A stretch of 15,787 bases of DNA, from NCBI GenBank assembly GCA_004000155.1, contig RCSS01000813.1, positions 8,573-24,359 of the forward strand, read 5' to 3'. Source of the stretch: Tubulinosema ratisbonensis. Taxonomy: Eukaryota; Microsporidia; Tubulinosematidae. The notes under the pieces are model-generated. The model searched no databases. It worked only from the letters and a program-made list of their open reading frames with translations, and had not been told where the DNA came from. Both the position numbers and the translations under genes were made by a program. Positions 823 through 14,923 of the stretch are shown piece by piece; within the stretch, counting starts at the first letter, position 1, and each line of letters begins with the position of its first letter.

Positions 823-836
823 GTTCATTCTCCTTA
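823..836. repeat. Target-site duplication, left, of SINE-like copy 1
   Basis: GTTCATTCTCCTTA lies just outside the T-run end of copy 1. It matches 11 of 14 bases of 1057-1070 at the other end. In the Tc1 reading frame both copies encode the same residues (KENE), as expected if one target site was duplicated. Confidence 0.75.
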
Positions 837-1056
837 TTTTTTTTGTTGCCTAGGGATGGGAAATCCATACGAAGATCTTTTCGCTATATCTTCTTTATAA
901 GAATATTTATACCTAGTTGACGGAGACATAAGGTAAAATATGTTTCCCATACTTAGGTATAACTCAAGATACTGCGAGCTTTTCTCCCGCTAAACCCCAC
1001 CCCGTGCACTATGTTGACTGCCTAAGTCTACCTTACCTTACAGGCTTTCGTTACAT
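837..1056 (-). mobile_element. SINE-like retroposon, full copy 1
   Basis: This is a 220-bp element whose sense strand is minus. Its 5' end is at 1056 (TGTAACGAAAGCC...) and its 3' end is an A-run, seen as T8 at 837-844 on the plus strand, directly after GGCAAC. It is about 91-92% identical to copy 2 (3992-4211) by hand alignment, and much less AT-rich than the surroundings. It has no terminal inverted repeats and no credible ORF. It is flanked by 14-bp target-site duplications. A fixed 5' end, an A-tail and duplications fit target-primed reverse transcription by a LINE-type enzyme, so it is non-autonomous. I see no convincing tRNA-type A/B box pair, and the sense strand contains an internal TTTT, so Pol III origin is unproven. 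A hairpin occupies 908-961. It sits inside the Tc1 relic. Confidence 0.8.
908..961 (-). other. Internal hairpin of SINE-like copy 1
   Basis: An outer stem TATACCTA/TAGGTATA (908-915 with 954-961) encloses an inner stem, 922-930 with 939-947, where 8 of 9 positions are Watson-Crick and one is G/T. The loop is AGGTAAAA. The equivalent hairpin in copy 2 is at 4061-4114, and older copies keep a hairpin at this place with different bases. Confidence 0.6.
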
Positions 1057-1070
1057 GTTCGTTCTCTTTT
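1057..1070. repeat. Target-site duplication, right, of SINE-like copy 1
   Basis: GTTCGTTCTCTTTT is the right partner of 823-836, with 11 of 14 bases identical. It begins directly after the element 5' terminus. Confidence 0.75.
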
Positions 1071-1265
1071 TTACGTAATATTTATAAGGTTTCAAATCAA
1101 CTTTTAGTAAAAAGTTTCTGTGTCTTGAATTTTTTGATTGTATTTTGTACAGTTAAATTAAATATTTTCGATATCTTTGCTATTTCTCTCAAAATTTGTC
1201 CCTCTTTGCTAAAATATGAAATAAATTCTGATATTTATTTGTCTAAATGTTCCCCTATTTAAAAC

Positions 1266-2115
1266 AGCTATAAATATTTTTAAATTTGTAAAGATAAAAA
1301 AGCCTATTATTTTAAAGTTATGACTATCTAAAAATTAGCAACAAAAACAAAAATACAAACAGAAACTCTATAGTTTTAAATCAAATCACTTCTTTTCTTC
1401 TTCGGAAATTTTGTTTTTGACATCAAAAAAAAACAAATTACATATTCAATATAAAAGCATCAAAATTATATCATGAAATTGTTGAAAAGTTAAAATACAA
1501 TTTATGAGATATTTTAGAAAATGGCTTATAAAAATATGTCTTGTAAAAGACTATTTATAATTTTTTTATGGGATTTTTTATAATTTTAATAAGATATAAA
1601 ATATAAAGACAAAAAAAGAGACGACTTAATATTACTGAATGTAATGTAATTTGTAAATTATAGTTTAATAAATTATTTTTTAAAATGATTTCATTCAAGT
1701 TTTATTATAACGACCAAGGGTTTCCCACAAAAAAATAAAAAATATAAAATTTTTTACTTCTCCCTAAAAAAATCATGTGATAAATATTTTAGTGAGTGCA
1801 ACTATTATATATATTAAGATAAACAAGATAAACCAAAAATATTCGATCGGTGTTTTTTACCGGACTGTAAATATCAGAAACTAAAACTAAATAGAAATTC
1901 TTTAAAAACCATGATATTTATACAAATTTTACTGTATTTTTTTATATTTTTAATTTAACTAATAATATTTGATAGTTTTTAATTATTTGTATTCTACATT
2001 AAAATTAGATTTGATAAAACATAAAATAAAATTTTATACAATTTATCAAATTATGAAATTTTCTTATCATTCTTATCATTTTAATATTTAAAAATTAAAA
2101 GCCAAAAAATATTTT
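1266..2115. other. AT-rich intergenic spacer
   Basis: No ORF or strong repeat was found. The first part may hold the missing terminal repeat of the Tc1 relic. Just before the gene at 2116 there is a short tandem TTCTTATCA (about 2062-2079). A GGGTTTCCCAC-A-rich stretch at about 1718-1740 is faintly like the 3' end of the SINE-like family but too short to call. Confidence 0.5.
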
Positions 2116-2964
2116 ATGGACTCAGAAAATACAAGAATACAAATCGATGATCAAGAGATGGAAGAATACATTAGGCCTAGTCGCAAAGATCTGTTTTATA
2201 ACATTTTACTTTTATTCGACCAAATGGTTACCATCACACTTGTCTTGTTTATAGTCTCAAGATTTGTAAGAGTGATTAGTTTCAACCAAATGATGTTTAT
2301 ATTTGCACATATTTTTATAATAGGATTCTTGATAAAAACTTATAAAATGAAAAGTAAAAGTTTCCCTTTTTTTTACATTCTAAAAAGTTTTCTATCGGTT
2401 ATGTATTTATTTTATTATATTTCGCACGTTTTTTTCTTTTCATTTGTTGGTTTTTGTGTAGCCCTGACCAGTATCTATGTGTCAAATAAGAAAATTAATA
2501 ACAACTCTTTAAAAATATGTAAAACTTATGAAATTGGTGGAGTAATAACATACATATACATGTTTATAGAAACTTTTATTCTTGTATATCACTTGATTAG
2601 AAAATCAGTTTGGGTAGAATATAAACTTAGCAAATTTTCCTTTTACAGAATTTTGTGTTTCTCCGTGCTAGTCGTCCTTTTTTGTTTCTTTTTCATTTAC
2701 AAAAACAAGTTAATAACTTCAATTTTAGGATTGTTTTTAATTTATAATATAATTTTTACCGGCTTATTTTATTTCTTTAATGAAGATCGAGACACAGAAA
2801 TCAAATCAAAGTTATCAATGCAATATTATTTAATTTTAAAAATTGTGAATTTTTACTTTTTGTCACTTTATTTCGTATATGATTATATTTCTGTAACTTA
2901 TATGGTAAATCCGAGGTTTAATACTAATTTTATATTAACAATAAGTAATTATACTGCTAATTAA
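2116..2964 (+). CDS. Orphan multi-pass membrane protein, 282 aa
   Basis: I do not recognise a family. The N-terminus (residues 1-26) is soluble and acidic (DDQEMEEY). About eight hydrophobic segments follow, roughly at 28-49, 58-75, 85-103, 104-122, 141-162, 176-195, 198-220 and 236-258, joined by short basic or polar loops (KTYKMKSKS, SNKKINNN, NEDRDTEIKSK). The C-terminus is short and Asn/Thr-rich. There is no signal peptide before the first membrane segment. The ATG at 2116 is the first in frame and precedes the acidic leader, preceded by an AT-rich ATTTT stretch. The protein is rich in Phe, Tyr and Ile, partly from base composition. Its neighbours are repeats, with no operon partner. It could be a lineage-specific transporter or a member of a microsporidian membrane-protein family; this is a guess. 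Gene status itself is well supported by length in such AT-rich DNA. Confidence 0.75.
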   Translation: MDSENTRIQIDDQEMEEYIRPSRKDLFYNILLLFDQMVTITLVLFIVSRFVRVISFNQMMFIFAHIFIIGFLIKTYKMKSKSFPFFYILKSFLSVMYLFYYISHVFFFSFVGFCVALTSIYVSNKKINNNSLKICKTYEIGGVITYIYMFIETFILVYHLIRKSVWVEYKLSKFSFYRILCFSVLVVLFCFFFIYKNKLITSILGLFLIYNIIFTGLFYFFNEDRDTEIKSKLSMQYYLILKIVNFYFLSLYFVYDYISVTYMVNPRFNTNFILTISNYTAN

Positions 2965-3765
2965 ATCAGAAATCATAAAATTTACAGAAAATTATTAATA
3001 TTTTAATTCATATCTTACGATAAAAATTTAGCAATCATTAGTTTTGAATAAAAAAAGAAAAAAATAATTTAATTTTTTATTGTAATTTTTAATTTTCCTG
3101 GTGCAAATAATTTTCTCTTTCTATAAAATTCTAATTTTATTTGAATTATTAGCAATCATTTATTTTATCATTAAAACATGTATAAATAAAAAAAAAATTT
3201 ATTTATTAAGTCTTCAAAGGATTATCTTACATAAATTAACTATAAATATTTTAAACACTCATATTTTTATTAAATAATTTTTATATATTACAGTCTCCTT
3301 TTCTTTTTTTATTATAATAATTTGTTGTTAAAATTTATGATAAAATTTTTTGTAAATAAATATATTTTAAAATTTATTACACTTATAATCTTTGAATTTG
3401 ATTTTTAAATTTAATCAAACAAATATCTTTTATTTTAAAATATTTAAATTAGTCAAAAATAAAAAGAAATGTTATGTAATTTAATTAATTATTTTATTGT
3501 TAAAAAATATTTATTGATCTTTTTAGTTCTTAATGTTCAAAATAAAAATAAAAAAATATTACAAACACTTAAACATAAATAAACAATTCTAAAAATATTT
3601 TTATATTTTTTAAAGAATTAAGATATGTATTTTGGGTATAAAAAGCATCATTTTATAAGAATATATTTGTCTTTAAAATGATTATCTTTTGTTTTGATCA
3701 CATGAGATCGTTTTGTTTTTTTAAATAATTTAAGTGAAATAACATCAGGTGTTATTTTTACATAT
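2965..3765. other. AT-rich intergenic spacer
   Basis: Nothing gene-like was found. The only oddity is a 12-bp direct repeat TTAGCAATCATT at about 3028 and 3149, 121 bp apart. Poly-A and poly-T runs are frequent, so poly(A) signals cannot be told from background. Confidence 0.5.
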
Positions 3766-3882
3766 TTAAATCTGTTTCTTTTTATGATAAATTTTTGAGA
3801 TAAAAATAAAAAATAATTTTAATTTGGTTTTTTACTTTACATTTTTTCTAAAATTTTATTTAATAAAAAGAAACAGATTTAA
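3766..3882. mobile_element. Small TTAA-flanked inverted-repeat element (MITE-like candidate)
   Basis: Perfect 20-bp arms, 3766-3785 and 3863-3882, face each other across 77 bp. The outermost four bases of each arm are TTAA. The sequence can therefore be read as a 109-bp element (3770-3878) with 16-bp terminal repeats (ATCTGTTTC...GAAACAGAT) between duplicated TTAA sites, as for piggyBac-type MITEs. A further CATCAG/CTGATG pair lies outside (3743-3748 and 3886-3891), offset by an extra 16 bp on the left. That outer pair argues instead for a larger inverted repeat or hairpin. There is no coding content. No second copy was seen in this window. Confidence 0.4.
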
Positions 3883-3977
3883 TCTCTGATGACATGTAAA
3901 ATTTTAATAAAAGTAAAGAAATATATTTTTATAACAAAATTGGTTTTTATAACCACAAATATTTCTTTGACATAAAT

Positions 3978-3991
3978 TTTATATTCTATTT
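3978..3991. repeat. Perfect target-site duplication, left, of SINE-like copy 2
   Basis: TTTATATTCTATTT is identical over 14 bp to 4212-4225. It runs straight into the T-run (complement of the A-tail) of the element. Confidence 0.9.
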
Positions 3992-4211
3992 TTTTTTGTT
4001 GCCTAGGGATGGGAAATTCATACGAAGATCTTTTCGCTATACCTTCTTTATAAGAATATTTATACCTAGTTGACGGAAACATACGGTAAAATATGTTACC
4101 ATTACTTAGGTATAGCTCAAGATACTGCGAGCCTTTCACCCGCTAAACCTTACCCCCGTGCACTCTATTGACTGCCTAAGTCTACCTTACCTTGCAGGCT
4201 TTGGTTACAGG
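3992..4211 (-). mobile_element. SINE-like retroposon, full copy 2
   Basis: This 220-bp copy has the same orientation, length and ends as copy 1. The sense strand starts at 4211 with (C)TGTAACCAAAGCC and ends in GGCAAC plus an A-run (T-run to 3997 on plus). Perfect 14-bp duplications flank it, so it is a fairly young insertion. About 18 differences from copy 1 over 214 bp were counted by eye. The conserved hairpin is at 4061-4114, with 8 of 9 inner-stem pairs. An 86-codon minus-strand ORF (3879-4139) crosses the element and its flank. I treat that ORF as chance, because it is shared element sequence and neither copy 1 nor the older copies keep it. Confidence 0.88.
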
Positions 4212-4225
4212 TTTATATTCTATTT
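4212..4225. repeat. Perfect target-site duplication, right, of SINE-like copy 2
   Basis: This is the right partner of 3978-3991, with 14 of 14 identical. It begins immediately after the element 5' end. Confidence 0.9.
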
Positions 4226-4488: not shown

Positions 4489-4550
4489 TTTTTTTGTTGT
4501 TTAGGAATGGGAAATTTTTAAAGATCCTTTGCTATGCCTTCTATATAAAA
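4489..4550 (-). mobile_element. SINE-like fragment, 3' end only
   Basis: A T-run followed by GTTGTTTAGGAATGGGAAAT and AAGATCCTTTGCTATGCCTTCTATATAA matches the first ~60 bp (plus strand) of copies 1 and 2 with scattered changes, then stops. It is a truncated, older copy in the same orientation. It ends about 35 bp before the start codon of the gene at 4586, so it may now be part of that gene's upstream region. Confidence 0.7.
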
Positions 4551-4585
4551 TATAAAAATATAAAATTAAAATTATAAAAATTTTT

Positions 4586-4831
4586 ATGAATGAAAAACAA
4601 TCAAAAAGAAAATTCATACAGTCTCTTATAAACGACCATTTCCCAGACAAACAAATAGAAATAGATTTCTTAGAAAGAAAAGTTGGCTTAGATTACAACA
4701 AAGTATATTTAGGATTGAACAAAGAACAAAAAAAGTATTTAATTGAAAAAAAGTATTTCAACCCACATAAAGAAAGAGAACAAGAAGAGGAATACAATAA
4801 AAGTAAGAAAGTTAAAAAGATTGGTAACTAA
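4586..4831 (+). CDS. Orphan small basic protein, 81 aa
   Basis: I do not recognise a family. It is hydrophilic and strongly charged, with no signal peptide or membrane segment. Residues 5-18 (KQSKRKFIQSLIND) and 20-60 (FPDKQIEIDFLERKVGLDYNKVY...) look helical, and the tail (60-81) is Lys/Glu-rich. The middle has a loose helix-turn-helix feel (ERKVGLDYNKVYLGL), but the Trp and Asn/Arg residues of a homeodomain are absent. I therefore do not call DNA binding. The start is the first ATG, in AATTTTTATG. The first 240 nt are A- and C-rich, like the 5' halves of the confirmed genes here, which supports it being real. The next gene follows 75 bp downstream on the same strand. Confidence 0.6.
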   Translation: MNEKQSKRKFIQSLINDHFPDKQIEIDFLERKVGLDYNKVYLGLNKEQKKYLIEKKYFNPHKEREQEEEYNKSKKVKKIGN

Positions 4832-5211: not shown

Positions 5212-5543
5212 ATAATATTTAATTGGTAATAAAATTTAACAATAATTGACCTGTAAAAGAATACTTTTTTATTTGTCTAGTTGTTAATGAATGGTTAATA
5301 TAGTCTTTTGAATAATTTACCTGTGAATTTTTAATTTATTTCATTAGTTAATGAAATTTTGAGATTGGAAATAATTTTTTACTACTAACAAATATTTTAA
5401 AAGAATTTATAAATTGATGTAATAATATATATTGATTAATTTCTCTTCATTTTATATAAGTATTAATATACTTTAGCATTTATAACTTTTATAGTTTGTT
5501 TTTAGATTAAGTTAATCTTCACAAAAACTGATTAATTGTGTTT
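5212..5543. other. AT-rich intergenic spacer
   Basis: No ORF and no clear repeat were seen. It leads into the cluster of old SINE-like copies starting at 5544. Confidence 0.5.
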
Positions 5544-5669
5544 TGTAACCAAAGCTAAGATGGACTTAAATTTCCAACATAGTGTACAGTGTAGGTTTTA
5601 GCAGATAAAATGCTTGTGGTATTTATACCTAACTATTTAGAAGTGTATTTTACACTGATTTTTCATTCC
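5544..5669 (+). mobile_element. SINE-like copy 5, 5' half (old)
   Basis: It starts with the family 5' end TGTAACCAAAGC. It then follows the sense strand of copies 1 and 2 (GACTTA, AACATAGTG, GGTTTTAGC, TTTATACCTAA) to just past the internal hairpin. The hairpin here is AGTGTA-TTT-TACACT, a perfect stem built from different bases. It breaks off where copy 6 begins. Orientation is opposite to copies 1 and 2. Confidence 0.7.
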
Positions 5670-5880
5670 TGTAATTAAAGCTAACAAGGTAAGATAGACT
5701 TAAATAGCCAATAAAGTGCACAATGTAGGCTTTAATAGGTGGATGGCTCGCAGTTTCTATACCTAATTATGTAGTAATATATTATACAATAAATTTTTGC
5801 TAAATAAATATCTTAAACAATGTAAGGTATAGTTTAATTTTTTTATAGATTTCTATTCTTAAGCAATAAGAAAGGAATAT
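5670..5880 (+). mobile_element. SINE-like copy 6, near full length (old)
   Basis: It starts TGTAATTAAAGC and contains AAGGTAAGATAGACTTA, AAAGTGCAC, GGCTTTAATAGG, GGCTCGCAG and CTATACCTAA in family order. It ends TTAAGCAATAAGAAAGG, the decayed GGCAAC-A-run. At about 210 bp it is close to the 220-bp full length. It is far more diverged than copies 1 and 2. It appears to sit inside an older copy whose halves are 5544-5669 and 5891-6005. Confidence 0.7.
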
Positions 5881-5890
5881 AAGATCTCGT

Positions 5891-6005
5891 TAAGAAACAT
5901 ATTTTAAAGTATTTTTCAATCGACTAGGTATAAATATTCTTATATAATAATAGGTATAGTTCAGATATTTTAAAGATTTCTATTTTTAAGCAACAAGAAA
6001 AGAAT
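5891..6005 (+). mobile_element. SINE-like 3' half (probable rest of copy 5)
   Basis: AAGAAACATATTTTA, CGACTAGGTATAAATATTCTTATA, AGGTATAG and TTAAGCAACAAGAAAAG match the second half of the sense strand of copies 1 and 2 in order, including the tail. Its start overlaps about 25-30 bp of family positions already present at the end of 5544-5669, as a target-site duplication from the insertion of copy 6 would give. Confidence 0.65.
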
Positions 6006-6424: not shown

Positions 6425-6516
6425 AAGTATTTTTACATTACCTGATTAATGAAAGTTATTCTTATAAAATTTTACAATATTCTTAAGATTTCTTATCTTT
6501 AGACAATAAAAAAAGA
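6425..6516 (+). mobile_element. SINE-like 3' fragment (old)
   Basis: TATTCTTATAAA, then GATTTCTTATCTTTAGACAATA followed by an A-run, aligns with the second half and tail of the family in sense orientation. No 5' half is detectable. Confidence 0.45.
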
Positions 6517-8372: not shown

Positions 8373-8437
8373 AATTTTTAGACACCTACGTATGAAAAAT
8401 CCATACAAAATTATATTTCATCAAAGATACAAATACC
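8373..8437 (-). mobile_element. SINE-like 3' fragment (very old)
   Basis: CACCTACGTATGAAAAATCCATACAAAAT (split across 8383-8411) aligns with CCTAGGGATGGGAAATCCATACGAAGAT of copy 1. It is a decayed 3' end in the same orientation as copies 1 and 2; the T-run is short. Confidence 0.45.
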
Positions 8438-11535: not shown

Positions 11536-11650
11536 TTAAGTAATTTTTTATTTTTTTAAATTAAGTAATTTTTTATAAATTTTAATTAAGTAATTTTAAA
11601 TAAATTTAAATAAAGTAATTTTTTATAAATTTAAATTAAGTAATTTTATA
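11536..11650. repeat. Five-unit 25-bp tandem repeat in divergent promoter region
   Basis: The core TAAGTAATTTT(TTAT) recurs with its G at 11540, 11565, 11590, 11615 and 11640, an exact 25-bp period. It lies midway between the divergent starts at 11475 and 11724. The N gap at 11532-11535 abuts the first unit, so copy number may be wrong. It could space or bind transcription factors for both genes, or simply be a satellite; no direct evidence. Confidence 0.7.
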
Positions 11651-11662
11651 AAAAATAAAAAA

Positions 11663-11700
11663 TTCTATTTTAAATTAATTTATTCAATTTAAAAATAGAA
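11663..11700. repeat. Inverted repeat upstream of DPH5
   Basis: Arms TTCTATTTTAAATT (11663-11676) and AATTTAAAAATAGAA (11686-11700) pair over 14 bases with one bulge around a 9-base centre. The repeat ends 23 bp before the DPH5 ATG, so it is either a promoter feature or, if transcribed, a leader hairpin. Confidence 0.5.
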
Positions 11701-11723: not shown

Positions 11724-12485
11724 ATGCTTTATTTAATTGGCACAGGTCTTTCATCCAAAGACATTTCATTAAACTCATTAGAAATCATAAAAAGAAGCAA
11801 AAAAGTTTACTTAGAAATTTACACCTCAAAATTAGAAAAACAATTAAAAGAATTAGAAAAATCTTACCAAGTAAAAATACACCCTGCCTCAAGAAACTTA
11901 TTAGAAAATACAAATGAAATTGTAGAAGAATCTTTAGAGAATGATGTTGTGTTATTGGTAATTGGTACTCCTCTTTTTGCCACCACACACACTGATATTA
12001 TTTTGAGAGTAAAAGAAAAGAAAGGTTTAGTAAAAGTAGTACATAATTCTTCTATTTTAAATGTGTACGGTTGTTGTGGATTGTATTCTTACACTTTTGG
12101 TAAAATTATTTCTATTCCTTTCTTTGAAAATAGTTGGAAACCAACATCATTTTACTTTAATATTCTTAGTAATAAAAATATTAATTTACATACACTTTGC
12201 TTATTAGATTTAAGGATTACAGAGGAAAATGAATTGTATATGAGTCCTAATATTGCATTAGATCAATTATTACAATGTGAATCTATTGAGAAGAAAGGAT
12301 TGATTACTTTAGACACAGAAGTATTTGTTATTTCTAGGTTTGGTTGTGAGAATGAAGAGATTTGTTATGGTAAGATTGGAGAGATGATTAAGAAAGATTT
12401 TGGTGAACCATTACATTCTTTAATAATACCTGGGAAAATGGATGTATTAGAAAAAGAACACGTAGAAATGTTATTTAAAAAATAA
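11724..12485 (+). CDS. DPH5: Diphthine methyl ester synthase
   Basis: An S-adenosylmethionine-dependent methyltransferase of diphthamide synthesis. It methylates the modified histidine intermediate on elongation factor 2 in the cytoplasm. The 253 residues span the full family fold. The N-terminus MLYLIGTGLSSKDIS and YLEIYTS (29-35) match the family. ATTHTD (86-91), HNSSILN (107-113), GCCGL (116-120), SIPFF (130-134), HTLCLLDL (156-163), YMS (172-174) and FGEPLHSL (226-233) are all in place. The usual GDP motif before ATTHTD is GTP here (81-83), an Asp-to-Thr change. The protein is shorter than yeast Dph5 (about 300 aa), a normal microsporidian reduction. The start is the first ATG, in AAATCCATG. 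It diverges from the 556-aa gene and RRN3 follows 240 bp on. Coding-strand C:G changes from about 32:24 at the start to about 12:40 at the end. Confidence 0.96.
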   Translation: MLYLIGTGLSSKDISLNSLEIIKRSKKVYLEIYTSKLEKQLKELEKSYQVKIHPASRNLLENTNEIVEESLENDVVLLVIGTPLFATTHTDIILRVKEKKGLVKVVHNSSILNVYGCCGLYSYTFGKIISIPFFENSWKPTSFYFNILSNKNINLHTLCLLDLRITEENELYMSPNIALDQLLQCESIEKKGLITLDTEVFVISRFGCENEEICYGKIGEMIKKDFGEPLHSLIIPGKMDVLEKEHVEMLFKK

Positions 12486-14033: not shown

Positions 14034-14113
14034 ATTTTTTTGTTGACTATAGACAAGAAGTCCATACTAAAATCTTCTGTTATATCTTCTTATGGTAATA
14101 ATAAGTGTATGTT
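14034..14113 (-). mobile_element. SINE-like 3' fragment
   Basis: T7 then GTTGACTATAGACAAGAAGTCCATAC, and AATCTTCTGTTATATCTTCTTA, follow the 3' end of copies 1 and 2 (complement strand) and then lose the match. It has the same orientation as copies 1 and 2. Confidence 0.65.
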
Positions 14114-14229: not shown

Positions 14230-14478
14230 CGAGGCATTTCATATCTAAAAGGAACGACATCTTCTTAGAAAATTTTCTCGAAGCGGGGCTATTTTTACCT
14301 GCACATTACACTTTTTTGTAAAGATATAAGATATTGGTTGATTATAAATGTATAATGTAATGCGTTTCTACATATTTAGGTATAGTTCAGGTTAGTGCAA
14401 GCCTTCATCTGATAAACCTCACCCCATCCACTCTATTGACTGTCTAAATCTACCCTGCTATGAACGCTTTGATAACAT
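14230..14478 (-). mobile_element. SINE-like copy, diverged subfamily
   Basis: The right-hand part, from about 14376 (TTAGGTATAGTTCAG) through GCAAGCCTTCATCTGATAAACC, CACCCCATCCACTCTATTGAC, TGTCTAAATCTACCC and GCTTTGATAACA at 14478, matches the 5' half of the family base for base in order, with the same end. Left of it a larger hairpin (CATTAC at about 14304 with GTAATG at about 14356) replaces the usual one. Further left, CATCTTCTTAG and CTCGAAGCGGGGC give an unusually GC-rich patch matching only loosely. It is perhaps a separate subfamily, or a copy with inserted sequence. Confidence 0.6.
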
Positions 14479-14923
14479 TAGACTATTTCTAATATAATGC
14501 TTGAAAATTTAAAAAGAAAACTTGAACCAAAGGTAATAAATTATGACAAAATTAAAAATAAACTATAAGTTTTGATTAGAAATACATTCATAATTTATGA
14601 ATATTCTTTCATTTTTTAATAATGTGTATTATCATTTTTAAATCAAAAGTCAACTCATTCAGTCATATAACCTTTATTTTAAAAGATTATTCTAAGTAAA
14701 ATTAAACAAAATCATTTATTAACAAGTAAAAAAATTTTATTGAAAGAAAGGTAAAAATTTAATTTTACATTTTAAGATTGTACCATATTAAGAATATACA
14801 ATTATTAGAAATTGGTAAATAATTAGTTGTATTAGTATACCATTTGGGATATTTTTCTTAATTTGGTGTTAAATTTACTAATTTATCATTAATCATCAAA
14901 TTAACATAAAATAAAAAATTTTT
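14479..14923. other. AT-rich spacer
   Basis: No gene or repeat can be supported here. Confidence 0.5.

Follow-up and report, generated by a model that had tools for sequence, protein, structure and literature searches.

The window analysed here, a 15,787-nt stretch of contig C222 from the microsporidian Tubulinosema ratisbonensis, contains copies of a short, A-tailed repeat which a first-pass annotation had put forward as a family resembling short interspersed elements (SINEs). We consider it highly probable (about 0.85) that this family is a SINE, i.e. a short non-coding retroposon copied from a ~212-nt poly(A)-ended RNA by the machinery of a long interspersed element (LINE). Judged from sequence, this reading is based on a shared 5' end, an A-tail, target-site duplications, truncated copies with duplications of their own, neutral decay and the existence of two age groups. 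The SINE-like family is genuine, apparently undescribed and ordinary in its mechanism. The ~212-nt RNA would be produced from one or a few master loci, where its fold may matter for mobility, and would be copied by a LINE endonuclease and reverse transcriptase via target-primed reverse transcription; the partner would be an endonuclease-bearing LINE related to a frame-broken element found on another contig (C19).

Copies in the window

The element is ~212 bp long plus a poly(A) tail, and its sense strand (by our convention, the minus strand of the window) reads from CCTGTAACC to GGCAAC and then into an A-run. The two related copies reported in the first-pass annotation were recovered on the minus strand, with bodies at 845–1057 and 3998–4211 that are 92.2% identical. 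Their duplications fared unequally: that of copy 2 is perfect over 14 bp, that of copy 1 is weaker (12 of 15 letters match, and 2.5% of mismatched-flank controls score equally well). Older pieces were located by a profile scan of the window (envelope coordinates), in which the best match of the reversed-window control had an E-value of 0.69. The features of the putative SINE family are:

3998–4211, minus strand: body of copy 2, from CCTGTAACC (4211) to GGCAAC (3998)
3989–3997, minus strand: poly(A) tail of copy 2 (T-run on the plus strand; 3 bases overlap the duplication)
4212–4225, minus strand: target-site duplication, 5' side of copy 2 (14 bp, perfect)
3978–3991, minus strand: target-site duplication, 3' side of copy 2
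845–1057, minus strand: copy 1
837–844, minus strand: poly(A) tail of copy 1 (2 bases overlap the duplication)
1058–1072, minus strand: decayed target-site duplication, 5' side of copy 1 (12 of 15 letters)
824–838, minus strand: decayed target-site duplication, 3' side of copy 1
5542–5667, plus strand: old copy, model positions 3–128 (E = 4.6e-10)
5668–5830, plus strand: old copy, model positions 1–137 (E = 9.4e-18)
5874–5980, plus strand: old fragment, model positions 112–175 (E = 1.4e-8)
14333–14479, minus strand: old copy, model positions 3–125 (E = 2.8e-20)
14043–14111, minus strand: possible tail of the 14333–14479 copy, model positions 160–211 (E = 0.0038, marginal)
4497–4568, minus strand: old tail fragment, model positions 157–211 (E = 1.4e-4)

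Six of the eight older fragments proposed initially are therefore supported, one of them marginally (E = 0.0038). The fragment near 8373 was not significant (E = 2.3), and at 6425 the profile scan of the window gave nothing. The fragment placed at 14230 corresponds to the match at 14333–14479, which does not extend to that start; the latter match and 14043–14111 may be parts of one interrupted old copy. The old tail at 4497–4568 ends 18 bases upstream of an 81-aa open reading frame (ORF; 4586–4831) and could influence or provide its upstream region.

Abundance and ends across the assembly

The search for further copies covered 4.12 Mb in 236 contigs. A pattern for the 5' end matched at 137 places (up to two mismatches) and one for the 3' end at 196 places (up to three mismatches), in comparison to 2 and 0 for the respective reversed-pattern controls. 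A DNA search gave at least 42 matches when the best 40 of 298 first-look candidates were scored. In 17 loci chosen for their reverse transcriptase (RT) genes, the profile detected 17 copies or fragments that occupy 2,714 of 113,428 bases (2.4%), which scales to ~600 pieces in 4.1 Mb, albeit roughly, the loci being non-random. Among the matches listed, which include 100 of the 137 5' ends, 17 perfect 3' ends have no partner 5' end. The family is thus short, dispersed and of high copy number, and is taken to be non-coding on the basis of the frames checked in copies 1 and 2.

A set of near-full-length copies was then compared. From 53 BLAST matches 42 rows were kept, L001 (the locus of window copy 2) and shorter matches being dropped; removal of a duplicate locus (L023) left 41 copies. 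Alignment A1 retains 37 of these, as L013, L029, L038 and the second copy of L005 were excluded because of uncertain ends or low identity. The fixed 5' end at TGTAAC claimed by the first-pass annotation is indeed a shared point, since TGTAA[CT] is found there in 37 of the 41 copies, but the true end lies two bases further out, at CCTGTAAC, with which 27 of the 41 begin. Beside this fixed-end majority there is a minority of truncated copies; random 5' ends in some copies are normal for elements mobilised by LINEs. When 150 bp of flanking sequence on each side of the 41 copies were compared, only 4 matches were found (26–128 bp), so that no longer common element was seen within that distance. 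In the two longest, the right flank of L038, itself carrying another SINE piece, is matched to L010 and L012, both of which have old SINE pieces nearby. Copy number, the shared 5' end and the duplications at other loci described below all support the proposed SINE-like retroposon.

Mode of insertion

Duplications were scored by comparing left with right flanks, all mismatched flank pairs serving as control. Among the 41 near-full-length copies a score of at least 16 was reached by 22 (1.18 expected), of at least 18 by 16 (0.65 expected) and of at least 24 by 9 (0.02 expected); the duplications are ~12–20 bp long. Copies that are 5'-truncated and reach the 3' end gave a similar result, with 6 of 18 scoring at least 20 (0.88 expected), 2 of the 18 being without a usable left flank. 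In the clearest truncated cases, on C22 (L079), C137 (L063) and C109 (L059), the duplication overlaps the edge of the element by a few bases, as microhomology joining would produce. At L081, ~25 nt of tail plus an A-run are inserted in another SINE copy and flanked by a near-perfect 14-bp duplication, as judged by eye. SINE pieces nested in other SINE copies were seen at both L082 and L081.

Duplications in 5'-truncated copies are what target-primed reverse transcription of the LINE type predicts, and it is to this mechanism that tail, duplications and truncation together point. A non-autonomous DNA transposon of the miniature inverted-repeat (MITE) type would equally be short, present in many copies and devoid of evident coding capacity. 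It would not be expected to combine an A-tail with duplications of variable length and 5' truncation, and no terminal inverted repeat was seen by eye at the very ends; we regard a MITE as extremely improbable.

Two age groups and decay of the copies

The history of the family was analysed with 71 copies (76 profile matches of at least 90 bases minus 5 contained in others). Their identity to the young consensus is bimodal: 26 copies lie at 65–84%, 2 at 84–90% and 43 at 90% or above, and two age groups can be discerned from the sequences compared. The old copies are by-catch of loci picked for young copies or RT genes and the ratio of old to young is no census. For the old consensus, 22 of the 26 old copies were used; it carries majority letters of its own at 11 positions, which all fall within 106–163. 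Two of the changes are near-fixed (C to T at 136 in 21 of 22 copies and at 139 in 20 of 22). Since decay, too, most often takes the form of C to T (28% in the old group), not all 11 letters need be ancestral. Shared minority sites numbered 18, compared with a simulated mean of 8.5 and a simulated maximum of 19 (200 runs). Over the first 104 positions a single difference, in a G-run, separates the old from the young consensus.

The young copies are star-like, with a median identity of 94.8% to their consensus and of 90.0% to each other, and none of 151 pairs of sites within the young set passed Bonferroni correction as linked diagnostic sites. Their changes are dominated by C to T (5.1%) and G to A (5.8%), all others being at 0.5–2.2%. 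There is little CpG excess (5.7% and 6.8%, respectively, at 8 CpG sites), and change rates are similar at paired and unpaired sites of the predicted fold (7.4% and 8.3% for G/C; 3.8% and 3.3% for A/T). The copies decay as neutral DNA after insertion. They provide a neutral record, open to dating, of mutation directed strongly towards AT, and the two groups imply that retrotransposition of the LINE type was at work in this lineage during two periods or more.

Fold and origin of the source RNA

On the sense strand the young consensus is predicted to fold with −66.3 kcal/mol (z = −3.6; 0 of 200 shuffles as low), whereas the antisense strand gives −48.7 kcal/mol (z = −1.5; 15 of 200 shuffles as low). 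A single copy near the consensus behaves like the former (z = −3.25; 1 of 200 shuffles as low). The predicted structure has a closing stem, in which positions 13–17 pair with bases immediately preceding the A-run, and a hairpin of 10 bp whose outer pair is 111–136. Young copies have G-C here in 35 of 37 cases, old ones A-T in 13 of the 20 that were tabulated (five commonest types listed), which amounts to one compensatory change between the age groups. A second candidate, pair 106–142, was dropped because it depends on a shifted alignment. From these models it is likely that the source RNA was folded.

The first 104 bases were kept (one G-run position apart) while the hairpin changed with a compensatory pair, and for this reason we entertained the idea that the copies derive from a selected RNA with a structure, of an unknown class in Microsporidia, the copies being a record of an unknown non-coding RNA or of an undescribed type of SINE head. 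This is possible, though doubtful; should the head turn out to be an unknown RNA, the family would point the way to an RNA gene new for Microsporidia. A rival reading sees the copies as retropseudogenes of a still-working cellular non-coding RNA gene absent from libraries, hence a fossil record and not a selfish lineage. The GC content of the young consensus (43% versus 20% for the window) is in keeping with this, as are the strand-specific consensus fold, the near-identity of the first 104 consensus positions in both groups and the compensatory pair. Nevertheless, Rfam returned only chance-level matches for two copies at E-values up to 10, folding of the alignment gives the structure no backing, a SINE would more typically have hundreds of copies and two age groups, and the changes at positions 106–163 between groups would easily be tolerated by a SINE master. 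We therefore hold an origin from a working RNA gene to be unlikely.

A candidate partner LINE

RVT_1 has 27 matches in the assembly, several of which, as their long frames suggest, are Ty3-like elements. Among the matches listed, no contig but C19 has both an RVT_1 and an endonuclease-family match; endonuclease-family matches are also present on C179 and C156, neither of which is among the contigs with a listed RVT_1 match. The C19 LINE (L061: 2777–5629) is frame-broken, since endonuclease and RT are in separate frames and the RT domain is split over two. RT-like remnants on C157 and C201 have stops and are 30% and 47% identical to it, respectively. At the protein level its relatives are limited to seven weak matches (27–32% identity), of which four are from Rhizopus and none from a named microsporidian.

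Within the 3' region of this LINE, 30 bases of a 31-base stretch agree with the old SINE tail. When compared with the young tail, the region has a local score of 47, in comparison to an average of 14.7 for random assembly stretches; 47 was reached by 6 of 300 such stretches, presumably SINE-bearing ones. Either LINE and SINE share a tail or an old SINE fragment lies beside the LINE. We take the match as a lead on the partner.

Sharing of ends with a LINE brings to mind RIME of trypanosomes, a LINE derivative that consists of LINE ends with the middle deleted. Were the present family of that kind, it should have the 5' and 3' ends of its LINE. The 30 of 31 bases that the old SINE tail has in common with the 3' region of the LINE fit this, and CCCTGTATAG, just upstream of an ATG at the beginning of the LINE frame, resembles the SINE start CCTGTAACC by eye. 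Yet this 5' likeness is of a few bases only, and the young consensus has a single match to the LINE locus (positions 164–195; E ≤ 0.1), so that the possible end-sharing amounts to the 31-base stretch near the 3' end. A RIME-type derivative is accordingly very unlikely.

Observations that weigh against a SINE

Most SINEs of the named classes would be recognised by a small-RNA head transcribed by RNA polymerase III (Pol III) and by internal A and B boxes, and neither was found. Rfam searches of two copies, with E-values up to 10, gave no tRNA, 5S or 7SL head, as the first-pass annotation had noted from inspection, and no small nuclear RNA head, and the best consensus matches to the A and B boxes stay below the 95% level of shuffled sequences. 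The matches to TrxA thermometer, TtnuCD11 and CRISPR-DR40 in the same Rfam search are at chance level. In the whole window no Rfam family reaches its cut-off, and ARAGORN found no tRNA. A diverged 7SL origin of the head is possible, because the signal recognition particle RNA of the host was itself not found with two families (RF01502 and RF00017). RF01502 matched no control genome either and RF00017 matched five, below cut-off, so that the lack of a match in this genome is no proof of absence.

Further observations count on the same side. Duplications scoring at least 18 occur in under half of the near-full-length copies, and several copies have none. An 86-aa frame (3879–4139, GTG start) partly overlaps copy 2; its weight is tempered by the 119 bases by which it extends beyond the copy, and copy 1 has no listed frame of at least 70 aa matching it. 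The predicted fold is backed by only one compensatory event, and RNAalifold, applied to the 37 young copies, arrives at another structure, and a weak one (−10.1 kcal/mol, 25 pairs), although neutral decay of dead copies could explain this failure to recover the single-sequence fold. The LINE–SINE match ends 17–18 bases before an eight-A run, with unlike bases in between, and the best candidate duplication around the LINE scores 29, a value that 5 of 60 random windows attain; the match could thus stem from an old SINE fragment next to the LINE.

Relation to described elements

SINE3 is the 5S-headed SINE class, whose members are short and have a fixed 5' end and LINE-type insertion. The present family shares these features with it and with SINE1 (7SL head) and SINE2 (tRNA head), the latter two as given in the abstract of PMC7245038. 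It is unlike all three in that two copies matched no 7SL, tRNA or 5S RNA and that Pol III boxes did not rise above the level of shuffled sequences. As small-RNA head and boxes were looked for and not found, we group the family with SINEs that have no recognised head, EhSINE1 of Entamoeba histolytica for instance, and not with any named class. According to the part of PMC2996970 available, EhSINE1 is likewise a parasite SINE with hundreds of copies (393) and target-site duplications, has no known small-RNA precursor and only limited resemblance to A and B boxes, and, like the family here, has no defect-free copy of its partner LINE known. Compared by description in the same source, EhSINE1 is longer (~450–600 bp, in comparison to ~212 bp) and has internal repeats of 26–27 bp, whereas none were seen here and the tail is poly(A).

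No description of this family was found in the open-licence literature. The view that a SINE would be notable in Microsporidia has to be qualified, since a 'SINE' class has once been printed, for Nosema bombycis (28,669 bp, 0.18% of the genome; PMC3614468), the single microsporidian mention found. In the accessible text of that paper it is a class total in a table, with no family, end, tail or duplication described, and the likeness is one of phylum and label alone. The words 'SINE' and 'short interspersed' are absent from the main text of a microsporidian transposon survey (PMC4202319), as far as available, the Spraguea lophii paper (PMC3749934) in its available part gives only LTR (long terminal repeat) and non-LTR retrotransposons, and 'SINE' in PMC7198529 is a mosquito locus. 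The T. ratisbonensis draft (952 contigs, 7,555,974 nt, N50 of 12,152, largest contig 59,712; PMC6675976) was screened for transposable elements with tblastx, TransposonPSI and RepeatMasker; in the sections accessible, 91.8% of 160 such sequences are LTR, Mariner and Merlin elements, the remainder is left without a name and no SINE is mentioned. Microsporidian genomes serve as models of reduction, and the transposon surveys considered here rest largely on coding elements, so that short elements like this SINE can go unseen.

In the searched genome contigs of other organisms an exact 22-base tail pattern had no match, nor had an exact 21-base internal pattern in the searched viral contigs. Three viral contigs have 20 bases in common with the head, but the likeness stops there, and we take it as chance.

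Other features of the window

Near copy 2, a 117-bp near-palindrome (3766–3882) with 51-nt arms that are 73% complementary and ends TTAAATCTGTTTC...GAAACAGATTTAA looks like a small MITE. An AT-rich tandem repeat with 25-bp spacing (11538–11681) separates two divergent ORFs. The window also contains a DPH5-like gene (11724–12485), whose best named relative is from Anncaliia algerae (69%).

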